Shown piece by piece: positions 14,018-20,457 of a stretch of DNA of 35,106 bases. A program made the translations under genes and the position numbers. Positions within the stretch are counted from its first letter, which is position 1. Each line of letters begins with the position of its first letter. The stretch is from the NCBI GenBank assembly GCA_003171315.1, contig PMYE01000047.1:1-35106 (forward strand). The letters run 5' to 3'. The DNA comes from Acidobacteriaceae bacterium. Its GTDB lineage: Bacteria > Acidobacteriota > Terriglobia > Terriglobales > Acidobacteriaceae. The notes under the pieces were generated by a model, which was not told the origin of the DNA, did no database searches, and was given only the letters and a program-made list of their open reading frames with translations.

Positions 14018-15019
14018 TTACGGCAGGGAGTAGACGGTCTGCAGAACCTTTTCCTGCACGTTGCTTGGGAGCGGCGCATAGGAGAGAGTAGAGACTTCGC
14101 TCTCGCCGGACTTGATGCACCAGCTGAGCAGGTCCTTGATGACCTTTTCTTTCGCCATATCCTTGGGCTGCGTAGGAATGAGCAGATAGGTGAAGCTGGA
14201 GACGGGGTAGGAATTGGGCCCCGGAGCGTTGGTGATGGAGACGCGATAATCGGCTGGTATCTTGGCCGTGGCCGCGGCAGCCGACACGCCGTCAATCGAA
14301 GCCTTGAGGAATTTTCCGTCCGCGTTTTCCACTAAGCCGAAGTCGATGTGGTTTTGCAGAGCATAAATCAGCTCGACGTAGCCGATGGCGCCGGGCAACT
14401 GGCGCACGTAGCCGGCCACGCCCTCGTTCCCTTTGCCGCCCACGCCTGTCGGCCAGTTAATGGAAGTGCCCTTGCCCGGACCGCCGGCCCACTCTTTGCT
14501 GATCTTGCTCAGGAAGTCGGTCCAGATGAAGGTGGTGCCGCTGCCATCCGAGCGATGAACGACGATGATCTTCTGATCGGGCAAATGAACGCCGGGATTG
14601 TCCTTGGCGATGCGCGGATCGTTCCAGTTCGTGATCTTGCCCAGGAAGATGTCCGAGAGTACAGATTGGCTGAATTTGAGATCGGTAGCGACGCCGGGAA
14701 CATTGTAGGCCGGCACGTCCGCGCCCAGCACGGTGGGAATGTGAATCAGCTTGACGCCGCACGAAGCGAGCAACTCGTCGGTCATGGGCATATCGGATGC
14801 GCCGAAGTCGACGGTCCCCGAGCACACCTGCTTGATGCCGCCGCCGGAGCCGATGGATTGATAGTTGATCTGAACGCCGGGATGCGCGGCGCTGTATTCG
14901 CTGAACCACTTGGAATAGATGGGATACGGGAACGTTGCGCCCGCAGCCGTGATCGTTTGAGCATGAGCCGCGCTCAGCGCCCACACCAACAACGCAATGA
15001 CGACTAATGATTTCTTCAC
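14018..15019 (-). CDS. pstS: Phosphate ABC transporter substrate-binding protein PstS
   Basis: A 333-residue periplasmic binding protein. The GTG start at 15019 is preferred because GGGAG lies 7-8 bases upstream and it gives a clean signal peptide (MKKSLVVIALLVWALSAAHAQ) before the mature start TITAAGATFPYP, typical of PstS. Phosphate-binding landmarks are SGGGIKQV, DFGASDMPM and HRSDGSGTTFIW. It delivers inorganic phosphate to PstCAB. It sits directly after phoB and phoR on the same strand, so PhoB control is likely, but pstC, pstA and pstB do not follow: the next gene is a convergent GH3 glycosidase. The gap to phoR holds a heptamer array. Confidence 0.94.
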   Translation of the reverse strand: MKKSLVVIALLVWALSAAHAQTITAAGATFPYPIYSKWFSEYSAAHPGVQINYQSIGSGGGIKQVCSGTVDFGASDMPMTDELLASCGVKLIHIPTVLGADVPAYNVPGVATDLKFSQSVLSDIFLGKITNWNDPRIAKDNPGVHLPDQKIIVVHRSDGSGTTFIWTDFLSKISKEWAGGPGKGTSINWPTGVGGKGNEGVAGYVRQLPGAIGYVELIYALQNHIDFGLVENADGKFLKASIDGVSAAAATAKIPADYRVSITNAPGPNSYPVSSFTYLLIPTQPKDMAKEKVIKDLLSWCIKSGESEVSTLSYAPLPSNVQEKVLQTVYSLP

Positions 15020-15115
15020 AATTGTCTCCCTGGCAGTTTGCCTGCCGCAGATCATTGTCTACGCGCAATGTTACGGAGAGTTGAAAAGAAACAGAGAAAA
15101 GAGATCGGGGACTAA

Positions 15116-15150
15116 GAAACAGGGAACAGGGATCAGGGATCAGGGAACAG
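15116..15150 (+). repeat. Tandem heptamer array, 5 units, in the phoR-pstS gap
   Basis: Five phased units (GAAACAG, GGAACAG, GGATCAG, GGATCAG, GGAACAG) lie about 100 bases upstream of the pstS start on the opposite sense. Unit type matches the arrays at 7455 and 8813. Confidence 0.8.
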
Positions 15151-15247
15151 TGTCCGCGGGTAGTGGAAAAGCGCCATCTGGAGACCGAGGAGGCGCCGTG
15201 GAAGGTAGTTGCGAACGGGTGGATCCCAAGACCAAGCCGGCTTCGCC

Positions 15248-16675
15248 TCAGGCCGTGGCAGCGGAGGCAGGCTGCGGCGCGGGCTGGGGGACAGTTTGCG
15301 GAGCGGGCGCCAGAGGCAGCGTGAAGTGGAACGACGCGCCTTTGCCGAGCTCGCTTTCGCACCAGATGCGCCCGCCGTGGGCCTGGACGATGTGTTTGAC
15401 GATGGCGAGACCCAGGCCCGTTCCGCCCGACTCGCGCGAGCGCGCTTTATCGATGCGGTAGAAGCGCTCGAAGATGCGCTCCAGATGCTCGGAGGCGATG
15501 CCGGGGCCAAAGTCCTGAATGGTGAATTGCACCTCGGAAACCAGTAGGCGCGCGCCGGCGCGGATGCGCTTGCCGGATTGGGCGTATTTGAGCGAGTTCT
15601 CCATCAGATTGCCGAAGACCTGGTGCATGGCATCGGGATCGGCCATGACGAGAGCGTCGGGCGCGCCTGCGGACTGCAACTTGATGCCCGAGTCGGCAAC
15701 CATGCCGCCGAGCGAATCGATGGCATCCTGGAGGAGCACACTGGCGCGGGCCGGCTGCAGCGAGAGCTTGTAGTCGGGGCTTTCGACGCTGGCCAGAGCA
15801 AGCAGATCCTCCGTGAGGCGGCTCATGCGGCTGGCATTTTTGAGGATGACGCCGAGGAATTCCAGAGTGGTCTCCGGGCTGGGATTGGGATCCTCGATCA
15901 GCGTCTCCACATAGCCTTGGATCGATGTCAACGGCGTGCGCAGCTCGTGGCTGACGTTGGCGACAAACTCGCGGCGGGATTTTTGCGCAGCTTCGATGCC
16001 GGTGACGTCGTGAAGCACGGCGAGCGCGCCGCCAGCGGACAAGGGGGCGGCGTTGACCTCGAAGACGCGTCCGGGAGCAAGCAGCGTGGCGCGGCCTACG
16101 CAAAGTTCACGGCGTTCCAGCGCGCCACGCACGCAGGCCAACAGCTCGGGATCGCGTACGGAGTGAACGAGCGGGCGGCCGGGGAGGAGTTGCGCTCCCG
16201 CGATGCGCTGCATGACGGCATTGGACCAGCGCACTAAACCAGAGGGCGTAATGGCGACCACCGCCTCCTGCATGGAATCGAGCATCACGGTCAGCTCGTG
16301 ACGGCTGCTTTCCAGCTCGGCAAAGTCCTTGCCCAGGCGTTCGGCGGTTTGGTTCAGGGCGGCTTCCACGGTGGATATCTCGTCGTCGCCTGTAGCGTCG
16401 ATACGGGCAGCCAGATCGCCTTCGGCGATACGGCGGGCGAAAGCAACGACGCGCCGGAGACGGGCGGAGGCAGAGGCGGCGATCCAGGCGGCCAGCGGTA
16501 TAGCGATTACGAGGGCGATGAGGCCGGACCAGAAGACGAGAGGGCCGATGTCACGCAACGTGTCTGGCTCCTGATGCTCCACGAGGCCGTAAAGAACGGT
16601 TTCCATCACCAGGGTGACGAAGACCAAAAGAGCGGTGAAAAGGCCGAGCAGTTTGGCGAAGACTCTGGAGGTCAT
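15248..16675 (-). CDS. phoR: Phosphate-regulon sensor histidine kinase PhoR
   Basis: A 475-residue membrane kinase. Two membrane helices (about 7-30 and 45-66) frame a very short periplasmic loop, as in PhoR, which senses phosphate through the Pst/PhoU complex rather than by direct ligand binding. A HAMP region (70-120), a PAS-like domain (128-225), the HisKA box [15 protein letters not shown] with phospho-acceptor His243, and a HATPase domain ending in [19 protein letters not shown] follow. The C-terminal 30 residues are a Pro/Ala/Gln-rich tail. The gene lies 113 bases after phoB on the same strand and its leader consists of a heptamer array rather than a strong ribosome binding site. Confidence 0.92.
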
Positions 16676-16683
16676 GGAAATTT

Positions 16684-16710
16684 AGCTCTCAGCTATCAGC
16701 CATCAGCTAG
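16684..16710 (-). repeat. Tandem heptamer array directly upstream of phoR start
   Basis: On the minus strand, units of the type GCTGATG, GCTGATA and GCTGAGA run into the phoR leader, ending 8 bases before its ATG (16675). It is inverted relative to the array at 16752-16779. Confidence 0.7.
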
Positions 16711-16751
16711 TCCGTGGAGCGTTCGGCGACGTTGGCTCCTCAAAAGGAGGA

Positions 16752-16779
16752 GCTGAAGGCTGAGGGCAGAAAGCTGAAA
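16752..16779 (+). repeat. Tandem heptamer array just downstream of phoB
   Basis: Four units (GCTGAAG, GCTGAGG, GCAGAAA, GCTGAAA) lie within 10 bases of the phoB stop. With the inverted array at 16684-16710 it could form a long imperfect hairpin in the phoB-phoR transcript. Confidence 0.7.
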
Positions 16780-16788
16780 AGCGCGCTC

Positions 16789-17487
16789 TCAGTCGCCTTT
16801 GGGCAGTTCAAAACGATAGCCGGCTCCGCGCACGGTTTTCAGATAGCGCGGATTCTCCGGGTCGATCTCGATTTTCTCACGGATGCGGCGCACATAGACA
16901 TCGACGGAGCGCGGAGTGACGAAACGGGCGTCGCCCCATACGGCATCGAGGAGGTGATCGCGGCTGAAAACGCGGCCCGGATGACGGGCGAGGTAATCGA
17001 GGAGGCGGAATTCGGTCGCGGTGGTGGTGGTAAGTTCGCCGCGAACCTTCAACTGCATGGCGGAGGCGTCGATGATCACTTCCTCAAAGCTGATGATGGA
17101 CGGCGAGGTGGGCCGCTCGAAACGGCGCAGCACAGCTTTGACCCTGGCCACCAGTTCGCGCGTGGAAAAGGGCTTGGTGATGTAGTCGTCGGCGCCTAGC
17201 TCAAGACCGAGGACGCGATCGTTTTCGCCGGCGCGGGCGGTGAGAAAGATGATGGGGATGGTGGAAAGTCCGGCGTGATTGCGCAGGCGCCGGCAAACGT
17301 CAAGGCCGTCGCCGCCGGGAACCATGATGTCCAGAAGAAACAGCGCGGGCGGCCTGCGCTCGGCGTCGGGAATGAGATTGGAAGGAGTGTGAAAGAGGCG
17401 CGCTTCAAAGCCCGCCGCTTCAAGGTGATGTTGCACCAGCCTGGCTATATCGGTGTCGTCTTCCAGAACAAATACGGATTGGCTCAA
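16789..17487 (-). CDS. phoB: Phosphate-regulon response regulator PhoB
   Basis: A 232-residue OmpR/PhoB-class regulator. The receiver domain has the acidic pocket Glu9-Asp10-Asp11, phospho-acceptor Asp53 (LLDIMVPGGDG), FLTAR and Lys105 (ADDYITKPF). The C-terminal winged helix has FRLLDYLARHPGRVFSRDHLL and the recognition segment RSVDVYVRRIREKIE. It binds Pho boxes and activates phosphate-uptake genes on phosphorylation by PhoR. A TTG start at 17487 is proposed because AGGA lies 8 bases upstream and the N-terminus then matches the family; a longer frame back to 17700 adds unrelated residues. Confidence 0.92.
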   Translation of the reverse strand: MSQSVFVLEDDTDIARLVQHHLEAAGFEARLFHTPSNLIPDAERRPPALFLLDIMVPGGDGLDVCRRLRNHAGLSTIPIIFLTARAGENDRVLGLELGADDYITKPFSTRELVARVKAVLRRFERPTSPSIISFEEVIIDASAMQLKVRGELTTTTATEFRLLDYLARHPGRVFSRDHLLDAVWGDARFVTPRSVDVYVRRIREKIEIDPENPRYLKTVRGAGYRFELPKGD

Positions 17488-17742
17488 ACCGTCAGTCCTC
17501 GCCCCGCGGCCGGTTTCGATGTTCGGGATGTGTTGACCGCTGGAATCAAGAATAGAGTAAAACAACCAGGCAAAGGGATTGCAAAGGTTTGATGAATTCA
17601 GGGCCGAATGTGAATGCCGTGTGACTGGGCCGCGGTTTTGCACGCCACTCCGTTGTGCGCCAGCTCCGCCACCCGGCCGGCGGCAACTCCCTGCACGCAC
17701 TTATATGCCCACGCTCCAGTCCGGTTCGAGGCTGTGCTTGCG

Positions 17743-19689
17743 TCAGCGCTTCCTGGGCGCTTTGGAAACAGGCTTTTTTGCCGCCGGTTTTGAAGATTTC
17801 GCCGGAGCTTTCTTCGCCGGCCTGGCGGCTGGTTTTGGCTTGGCTTTAGGCCGCGCCTTCTTGGCCGGCGCCGGCTTGGCAACCTTCCTGGCAGGAGCTT
17901 TGGCGGTCTTCGCCGCCGGTTTAGCCTTGGCTGGCGCCGGCGCTTTGATGGCAGGCTTCGCAGCCTTAGGCGCTTTGACTGCAACCGCAGTGGGAGCGGG
18001 CTTCTGTGGGGCTTTGGCGGGCGCGATCTTCGCGGGCGCTTTCGTTGCCGAAGCGGCAGTTTCGGGCGTCTTGGCCGGAGCAGGCGCAGCGGCTGGGGCG
18101 GCCTTCTTCCCCTTCTTTTCTTTCCCTGGCGCGAGAGGACGTCTCTTGCCCGCCGGAATCGCTTCGGCCTCCTCGCCTTCCAGCTCTTCTTCTTCCTCTT
18201 CGCCCGCGGTTTCCACCTCCAACTCAGGCGCCAGGACGCCCTTGGGCAGAACGTGGCTCAGATCGAGTTCTTCGTCATCGGCCCCGATCGGCTCCAGGTC
18301 TTCTTCAACAGCCAAGCCTTCCTCGGCCTCTTCATCCTCCTCGAGGGCCGGCTCTTTGAACTTGCTCTCGGAGCGGCGGGCGCGGGAGCGCTTGACGGTC
18401 GCCTGCGGGGGCGGCGCGGGAGGCGAGTGCGGCTCAAGATAGGCACGCATCTCCTCCGCGGTGGCCAGGCGGCCATCGATCAGTTCAAGGAAAATGTTCT
18501 GGACAACCTCGCCGTATGTGGGCAACTCGGGAGTAATGCGCATCTCCTGCATAAGCCCATAGGGAATACGCTGGCGAGCCTCAGGCCAGACCTTGAGGAA
18601 GAGGCTGAAGCGTTCCTGGACGCCCTTATCCTTACTTGTAAATCCAAGCCAAAGAACGGCTTCCGGATCGTAATTCATAAAAAGCTTGTAGCCTGACGAG
18701 GCCTTGGCGTTCTTCTTGGCGAGCAGCACTTTCGCAAACCCAGCGGCCAACGAATCCAGGTTGTTCCACTCCGCCACAAAGCCTGGGCGCAGCAGCGACT
18801 TTTTGAGCGACGAATGATCTCTGTGCGACAGCTTTGCGGTGAGCAATTGCATTTGCGCCGCGGACATGTCAGGATGCACGCCCTGCAGAAGCAGTTGCAC
18901 CGCCAGATCGTGCAGGGCCGCCAGCTTGGCCTCATCGGCCTTGGCCGAGGTCCAGGCGGGAAAGAGAATGTTCATCCAGCCTTCCGCTTCGAGGGCGCGC
19001 AGAACCTTGAGTCCGTCCTCTTCGTGCCCGATCTGCTCCAACTCCTGGCTGCGCGCGTGCGCGGATAGATACTCGATGGATCCCTCGCTTTTCGCGTTGT
19101 CATAGCGAGCCTGAGTTCTTGGATCCATCTCCCAGCCCAGGCGGGCGCGGTACCGGATGGCCCGGATGAGCAGCGACGGGTCTTCGAGGAACCCGTAATT
19201 GGAAACCAGGCGGATGATCCTCGCTTCAATATCGGCTACGCCGTTCAGCGGGTCCATCAAGAGCCCGAACGACCCCTCGTTGAGCGAGATCGCCATGGAG
19301 TTCACCGTAAAATCGCGGCGGCGCAGATGGTCCTGGATGGAGGCGGGGTGAAAAACGGGCTTGCCCGGTTTGGGATACTCAACCCGGTGCGTGCTGACCA
19401 CGTTGACGCGAACGGTCCCTGGAAAGCACAGGTAAAGGCTCCGTGAAGGTTCGTCCTCGCCCCAAACCTTTCCGCCCAGTTTTTCTAACGGTTTCTTGAG
19501 CTTAAGCGCGTTCCCGTGGACCGCAATCTCCAACTCGCGGACGGCATGGCCGCTGGTCAGGTCGCGGACGGCGTCTCCGATGAGGAAAAGAATGGTCCCG
19601 GCATCGCGCGCGGCGGTTCGCAACTGCGTAAGGGCATGGCGCTGATCTGGCGAAAGCCGGTTCTCCAGGAGGTAGATATAGTCGGGCAT
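17743..19689 (-). CDS. tRNA nucleotidyltransferase/poly(A) polymerase-like protein with long acidic-basic tail
   Basis: A 648-residue protein; typical bacterial class II CCA enzymes have 400-500. Residues 1-420 carry the family motifs in order: FLIGDAVRDLTSG (family GGxVRD, here Gly-Asp), RELEIAV at 51-57 (family DxD, here Glu52-x-Glu54), RRRDFTVNSMA (123-133), DPLNGVADI (146-154) and EDPSLLIRAIRYRARLGW (169-186). The usual I-E-V-A-T-x-R segment is VNVVSTH. Such enzymes add CCA or poly(A) to RNA 3' ends. From about 430 a linker leads to an acidic block (446-509, mostly Glu/Asp) and then a histone-H1-like Lys/Ala/Pro tail (513-648). Glutamate for aspartate may keep or reduce metal-dependent catalysis. 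Confidence 0.85.
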   Translation of the reverse strand: MPDYIYLLENRLSPDQRHALTQLRTAARDAGTILFLIGDAVRDLTSGHAVRELEIAVHGNALKLKKPLEKLGGKVWGEDEPSRSLYLCFPGTVRVNVVSTHRVEYPKPGKPVFHPASIQDHLRRRDFTVNSMAISLNEGSFGLLMDPLNGVADIEARIIRLVSNYGFLEDPSLLIRAIRYRARLGWEMDPRTQARYDNAKSEGSIEYLSAHARSQELEQIGHEEDGLKVLRALEAEGWMNILFPAWTSAKADEAKLAALHDLAVQLLLQGVHPDMSAAQMQLLTAKLSHRDHSSLKKSLLRPGFVAEWNNLDSLAAGFAKVLLAKKNAKASSGYKLFMNYDPEAVLWLGFTSKDKGVQERFSLFLKVWPEARQRIPYGLMQEMRITPELPTYGEVVQNIFLELIDGRLATAEEMRAYLEPHSPPAPPPQATVKRSRARRSESKFKEPALEEDEEAEEGLAVEEDLEPIGADDEELDLSHVLPKGVLAPELEVETAGEEEEEELEGEEAEAIPAGKRRPLAPGKEKKGKKAAPAAAPAPAKTPETAASATKAPAKIAPAKAPQKPAPTAVAVKAPKAAKPAIKAPAPAKAKPAAKTAKAPARKVAKPAPAKKARPKAKPKPAARPAKKAPAKSSKPAAKKPVSKAPRKR

Positions 19690-19941: not shown

Positions 19942-20457
19942 ATGGCCTCAGCACGCAAACCTGTCATTGTGCGCAAGTTCTCCCGTGATTGGTTGGCCGG
20001 CTACGCGGCAGCCGAATTCGGGCAGACGAAACCGGAACTGGAGATCCTGGATCTGACCGGCAAGGTGGTGCGCATGGGCTGGGAGCACGTGAAGTGGATT
20101 TGCTACGTGCGAGACTTCCCTTCCGGATCAGCGGACCAGGCGAACCCGGAGCGGCTGCTCCGCAAGCGGTTTTCACTGCGGCCGCGCACTGCTGGACTGT
20201 GGCTGCGGCTGACGCTGGCCGACGGCGACGAACTGGAGGGGTTGGCGGCCAATGACCGGAGTTTGGTGGATGGCGTGGGATTGTTGCTGACCCCGCCCGA
20301 TACGCGCTCGAACACGCAACGGATTTATGTGCCGCGCCCGGCCATTCAGGCTTTGGAAGTGGTCAGCCTGATTGGGGCCGCGGGGCGCAAGCGGGCTGAG
20401 GCCGAAAGGCGCGGCGAGCAGCGCGATCTATTTGCCGGCGAGGGGGAATCGAGCTGA
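19942..20457 (+). CDS. Uncharacterised conserved protein, possibly DUF6982
   Basis: A 171-residue soluble protein from the ATG at 19942; an upstream GTG or ATG extension adds Arg-rich residues with no support. Visible elements are a basic N-terminus, EILDLTGKVVRMGWEHVKWICYV, a RKRFSLRPRT stretch, LWLRLTLADGDELEG and TPPDTRSNTQRIYVPR, suggesting two small beta-barrel modules. I recall this arrangement from unnamed acidobacterial and deltaproteobacterial proteins and believe it may be DUF6982, but cannot confirm it. Some relatives are fused to PilZ-like or signalling domains. The C-terminal 25 residues are charged. It stands alone, ending in a pair of hairpins shared with a convergent glycosyltransferase gene. 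Confidence 0.65.
   Translation: MASARKPVIVRKFSRDWLAGYAAAEFGQTKPELEILDLTGKVVRMGWEHVKWICYVRDFPSGSADQANPERLLRKRFSLRPRTAGLWLRLTLADGDELEGLAANDRSLVDGVGLLLTPPDTRSNTQRIYVPRPAIQALEVVSLIGAAGRKRAEAERRGEQRDLFAGEGESS

Follow-up and report, generated by a model that had tools for sequence, protein, structure and literature searches.

A gene on the minus strand at positions 17743-19689 of a 35,106-nucleotide stretch of Acidobacteriaceae DNA (hereafter the window) probably encodes a pseudo-nucleotidyltransferase that is shared by a large lineage of soil Acidobacteria. Our favoured reading, to which we assign a probability of roughly 0.62, is that the active site was lost a single time, at the base of the clade to which this protein belongs, and that the product has been kept as a non-catalytic and probably RNA-binding protein. 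The open reading frame is intact and comprises 648 codons; its ATG start is supported by the N terminus of the 648-residue product (M-P/A-D-Y), which is common to its orthologues. The head domain (approximately residues 35-136; 19282-19587, minus strand, as for all parts of this gene) contains G38-D39, E52-x-E54, N96, H101 and R124-R125-D126-F-T-V-N130 and accounts for most of a match to PF01743, the poly(A) polymerase/CCA head domain (residues 34-160, 51 bits against a cut-off of 23), which places it among the head domains of class-II tRNA nucleotidyltransferases. It is followed by the motif D region (approximately residues 169-188; 19126-19185) and by a helical part predicted with high confidence (residues 211-420; 18430-19059), the counterpart of the body and tail domains that hold the tRNA in class-II enzymes (PMC3925840). 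By sequence composition, the remainder consists of a linker with a Glu-rich acidic block (residues 421-520; 18130-18429) and a Lys/Ala/Pro-rich basic tail (residues 521-648; 17746-18129); the original prediction, made from the DNA letters, had described a tail of about 220 residues with these two blocks in this order, and 228 residues are indeed found beyond residue 420. Residues 7-413 match the CCA-adding enzyme of Thermotoga maritima and then 4wby/1vfg, identified as the Aquifex aeolicus A-adding enzyme by how their Asp-x-Asp is numbered. The best NCBIfam match is to the A-adding family NF041569 and spans positions 453-863 of its 880-position model; its score of 99.7 bits falls short of the curated cut-off of 1440, as do those of three relatives retaining the catalytic DxD (104.8, 142.4 and 150 bits), and the poly(A) polymerase I (PcnB) model TIGR01942 scores 36.4 bits against a cut-off of 305.65. 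An AlphaFold2 model of the protein (mean pLDDT 92.8) is predicted to have the overall class-II fold, with best matches to 4wby (358 residues) and to 3h38 (401 residues), the T. maritima CCA-adding enzyme, both at Z 24.2; the high rmsd values of 12.7 and 16.6, respectively, presumably reflect hinge differences between domains.

D170 is the sole canonical residue left in the window protein among the seven positions that we compared. In alignments to CCA- and A-adding enzymes of solved structure, E52-L53-E54 occupies the place of the catalytic D-x-D. G38-D39 stands in for the Gly-Gly of the G-loop, N96 for the third carboxylate and H101 for the Arg of EVATxR. For the A. aeolicus enzyme, Asp31, Asp33 and Glu74 are described as the three carboxylates and Asp149 and Arg152 as the residues that read the base (PMC3925840). 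The latter two align with D170 and L173; the EDxxR motif is represented by E169-D170-P-S-L173, with Leu at the position of the base-reading Arg. The corresponding carboxylates of the T. maritima CCA-adding enzyme, Asp55, Asp57 and Asp99 (PMC3925840), fall in the alignment on E52, E54 and N96. Glu at the first of these positions is by itself tolerable, since a class-I enzyme utilises Glu-x-Asp (Glu59/Asp61/Asp110; PMC3925840). The original prediction had called Glu52-x-Glu54 in place of Asp-x-Asp, Gly-Asp in place of GG, an altered I-E-V-A-T-x-R strand and a retained RRDFTVN, all of which are borne out by the alignment, but its statement that EDP..R is kept was out of register, as the next Arg after L173 is R176, three residues beyond.

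A sample of 100 genomes of the family Acidobacteriaceae contains orthologues in 96 (three of the 99 that gave matches, G002, G074 and G079, did so only through weak matches of the canonical enzyme), and the 80 genomes of the genus contain them in 76 (for two of the 78 with matches, G120 and G173, it was the canonical enzyme alone that matched). A search of 297 genomes sampled across the phylum with the family profile (1e-30) yields matches in 93; the 33 strong matches (E <= 2.8e-114) all belong to the same class, and 60 are weaker (8e-61 to 3.5e-31). Among the weaker matches, 25 from Acidobacteriota outside the class lie in frames of 861-912 residues, close to the length of the 880-position A-adding family, and are probably long A-adding enzymes. 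The 177 orthologous loci were reduced to 143 by removal of 34 with identical residues 11-380; residue counts refer to 142 of these (the fragment L206 excluded) and the tree to 140 (L100, L182 and L206 excluded). From the family, 70 of the 96 orthologues were aligned, and alignment A3 comprises the window protein with 38 of 43 unique named loci.

The 142 aligned orthologues fall into 77 with Asp and 65 with Glu at site 54. In the Asp54 group G39 is found in 77, D52 in 76, E96 in 73, R173 in 74 and D170 in 53 sequences; all seven canonical residues are present in 47 of the 77 and six in a further 20, the range being four to seven when Asp is also counted as canonical at site 96, against none to three in the Glu54 group. 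There, D39 is found in 62 of 65 sequences, R173 in five, and D170 and R173 together in none. Site 52 is occupied by Asp (28), Glu (33), Ala (2) or Gly (2), the fragment L206 outside this count likewise having Ala or Gly, and site 96 by Asp (53), Asn (8, including the window protein) or Glu (4). The RRDFTxN motif is retained, with R125, D126, F127 and N130 in all 65 sequences and R124 in 55. An alignment of orthologues around Glu-x-Glu and the tail had been proposed with the original prediction, and the exchanges in the active site are not due to chance, because the same ones recur across the whole clade. In a tree of 140 rows, from which columns 39, 52, 53, 54 and 95 were left out and in which column 96 stayed, all 63 Glu54 rows group in a single clade (support 100), whose members, judged by the record titles of named loci, are Acidobacteriaceae that include Occallatibacter savannae, Terracidiphilus sp. 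and Acidicapsa dinghuensis. The change from Asp54 to Glu occurs once on this tree, and that from GG to GD requires three changes; we interpret these as a single gain and two reversions (L087 and L191). At site 52 we count 14 changes within the clade against one among the Asp54 rows. Considering the 51 sites with no more than one change in the Asp54 rows, it is the one that changes most often in the clade (site 334 is next, with 11). The only loss of DxD outside the clade is in L061 (Glu-x-Asp), an orthologue of the DxD group whose first catalytic residue has changed independently. Known motifs hold five of 11 clade-diagnostic sites against eight of 120 other conserved sites (Fisher p=0.0014), a comparison that is weak because the motif list was drawn up post hoc. 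At the same time E54 and Q279 have become newly fixed in the clade. Constraint has been lifted on a catalytic residue and not on the protein. The base-reading site 170 is loosely held even in the Asp54 group, where 24 of 77 sequences have Glu (20) or Gln (4) instead of Asp; for this reason, a loosened choice of nucleotide may have preceded the loss of the active site.

The original prediction had advised looking for a second, canonical CCA enzyme, and would have been contradicted by a genome with no other such enzyme and with tRNA genes lacking CCA. Neither is found in the genome assembly of origin (3.29 Mb in 204 contigs, 91% complete). A second PF01743 gene, on another contig, encodes DYDVAT, EVATFR, the flexible-loop stretch and RRDFTIN together with RNA-binding and HD domains, so the window protein is not the only CCA enzyme of the genome. 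Among the loci of 30 of 33 tRNA places and the window's own tRNA, the 3' CCA is encoded in 30 of 32 distinct tRNAs, the two calls without it being a tRNA-Leu that ends in CAC and a second call within a tRNA-Ile locus. Because the canonical enzyme is present and the tRNA genes encode CCA, there is no evident need for a second enzyme, and the second paralogue is apparently not required for making CCA. With the canonical protein as query (1e-30), matches are obtained in 63 of the 80 genus genomes (39 of 42 of high quality), and the canonical motifs lie in one frame at 27 of 32 loci inspected (two repeats included), the other five being off pattern. In the 17 genomes without a canonical match, a PF01743 search finds only the window-type protein in 15 and no such protein in G131 and G162; three of the 17 are of high quality (G140, G152 and G157). 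The canonical enzyme of the window genome adjoins a gene that we take from its sequence to be tsaD, as is also the case in three of four other genus genomes looked at. This neighbour is likewise missing from all 11 canonical-lacking genomes in which it was sought (G140, G152, G157 and eight others), a search run with no positive-control genome alongside. As the presumed TsaD gene is missing as well, a shared assembly or binning gap is likely, and we draw nothing from these genomes about whether some members of the genus have lost the canonical enzyme.

Beyond the core, a Lys/Ala/Pro tail is present in the Asp54 and Glu54 groups alike, with a median K/A/P/R fraction in the last 100 residues of 0.74-0.80 in four groups (single members reach down to 0.22); a strong acidic block is confined to the clade and its near DxD relatives. 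The tail cannot be regarded as a consequence of lost catalysis, as relatives with DxD carry the basic tail too. The net charge of the core has a median of -8 in the clade compared with 0 in the Asp54 group, and this more acidic core calls for caution over any simple or stronger binding of RNA by the core itself. The gene has a conserved, divergently transcribed neighbour that encodes a DUF6982 protein of 171 residues (19942-20457, plus strand). Among 64 loci flanked by 2.5 kb or more on each side, DUF6982 lies divergently upstream in 61 (21 of 23 Glu54 and 40 of 41 Asp54 loci), with a median gap of 228 bases; it is single-copy in the window genome and absent from 14 control genomes. Its predicted model (pLDDT 81) has two small beta-barrels and finds no match with Foldseek at E 0.001. 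Structural matches are weak (best Z 4.4), and many are to Hfq/Sm-like barrels or tandem Tudor domains, a likeness that may represent only a common arrangement. Our literature search, judged by titles and the opening lines of abstracts, found no paper naming DUF6982. Downstream of the window gene (14021-17700, minus strand), Pfam identifies a histidine kinase, a response regulator and a periplasmic binding protein; these three genes stand beside other family members at none of the 64 flanked loci.

That the gene is a decaying pseudogene without function is scarcely credible. The loss of catalytic residues would fit such decay, as would the gene of G119 (71% complete), whose match is divided between two reading frames of a single contig, although this has the appearance of a frameshift or an assembly artefact; in G117 the match is split over two contigs. 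Against this, no internal stop occurs in any listed genus match of the window-type gene, the gene is carried by 76 of 80 genus genomes and has newly fixed residues, and the clade protein is under strong purifying selection, with a median dN/dS of 0.13 (155 of 2080 pairs with dS between 0.1 and 1.2); the median of 0.27 in the Asp54 group (191 pairs) is not comparable, as divergence there is mostly saturated. We reject the pseudogene on conservation and dN/dS. Very little probability attaches to an ordinary, slightly variant second CCA-adding, A-adding or repair enzyme with full activity. Homology to the T. maritima and A. aeolicus enzymes over residues 7-413, the retained RRDFTVN and a best NCBIfam match to the A-adding family speak for it, but the family score is far under its cut-off (as are those of the three DxD-group relatives), one canonical position of seven survives in the window protein, and the genome has a canonical enzyme and encodes CCA in its tRNA genes. 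It is similarly improbable that the core serves mainly as a scaffold for the charged tail, in the manner of an AlgP- or histone-H1-like protein binding the nucleoid, RNA or polyphosphate. The composition of the 63 clade tails (K/A/P/R making up a median of 0.75 of the last 100 residues), with an acidic block ahead of the basic part, would suit such a role, and the histone-H1-like AlgP provides a precedent, as it is described as acting on polyphosphate granules in Pseudomonas (PMC9239181). However, the basic tail also occurs on DxD orthologues, and the core of 57 clade rows near the window protein is at least as conserved as that of 23 near DxD relatives (mean pairwise identity in head, neck and body of 0.80, 0.81 and 0.76 against 0.79, 0.71 and 0.64), which together indicate that the core matters too.

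A more substantial, if still unlikely, alternative is that the protein remains a nucleotidyltransferase in which the metals are held by shifted acids (D39, E54 and Asp or Glu at 52 and 96) and the choice of base is altered with the disappearance of EDxxR. Besides the near-fixed D39 and the invariant E54, carboxylates occupy site 52 in 61 and site 96 in 57 of the 65 clade sequences, and the class-I pair E59-x-D61 offers a parallel (PMC3925840). Yet site 52 is Ala or Gly in four sequences and site 96 is Asn in eight, the window protein among them, the changes at site 52 are concentrated in the clade, and the base-reading pair is kept in no clade row. The near invariance of E54, D39 and D126 would argue against a wholly idle site. 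Weak or altered activity may be possible in most clade members, which keep acids at the three metal positions, since Asp occupies the third of these in the T. maritima enzyme too (PMC3925840). It is also conceivable, with distinctly lower probability, that Glu54 and the nearly invariant Asp39, newly gained in the former triphosphate loop, form a shifted acidic site at which the base is no longer read and which, with DUF6982, serves a new binding of nucleotides or RNA 3' ends or a different chemistry.

The altered or lost nucleotidyl transfer anticipated by the original prediction appears well supported by comparison of sequences, given the clade-wide loss of DxD, GG and the base-reading pair and the retention of fold and gene. 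In the pseudo-nucleotidyltransferase reading that we prefer, the protein would be an old second tRNA-nucleotidyltransferase paralogue of the Acidobacteriaceae, with the A-adding enzyme as its nearest curated family, and its active site would have been dismantled a single time, at the base of the clade whose 63 distinct sequences appear in the tree. The clade protein would no longer transfer nucleotides, and its helical body may still hold tRNA-like or other RNA 3' ends. The basic tail would add non-specific affinity for nucleic acids, tempered by the acidic block. We infer that the job that remains is most likely the binding of RNA, by way of the helical body and the charged tail. The protein could act as an RNA chaperone or regulator, perhaps together with DUF6982; the original prediction had likewise suggested such roles, with RNA or DNA as the possible ligand.

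Both fold and family are already known. Like the A. aeolicus A-adding enzyme (AaL; NF041569), which is its best curated family and among its best predicted-fold matches, the window protein has head, neck and body, a similar loop before RRDFTxN and the motif itself; unlike AaL, it lacks DxD, the third carboxylate and the Arg of EDxxR and carries an acidic and K/A/P tail, and it does not cover the first ~450 positions of the 880-position NF041569 model. The T. maritima class-II CCA-adding enzyme (3h37, 5hc9) resembles it in sequence over residues 7-413 and in fold over the core, and differs in the three carboxylates (PMC3925840) set out above. The DxD orthologues of other Acidobacteriaceae genera share the full-length core, the basic tail and the divergent DUF6982 gene but have, as far as sequence alone can tell, mostly intact active-site residues. 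MiD49 and MiD51 are eukaryotic pseudo-nucleotidyltransferases of a different family in which, likewise, the fold is kept and catalysis lost. Among bacterial tRNA nucleotidyltransferases, a literature search judged by titles and the opening lines of abstracts found no paper on an inactive or clade-wide retained pseudoenzyme. If our reading is right, the annotation "CCA-adding enzyme" would be wrong for the genes of this clade, and DUF6982 would be tied to the biology of RNA 3' ends. A single bacterial family would then provide a natural series from intact to dismantled, from a tRNA 3'-end polymerase to a non-catalytic protein, in which the order of losses could be read in living species.
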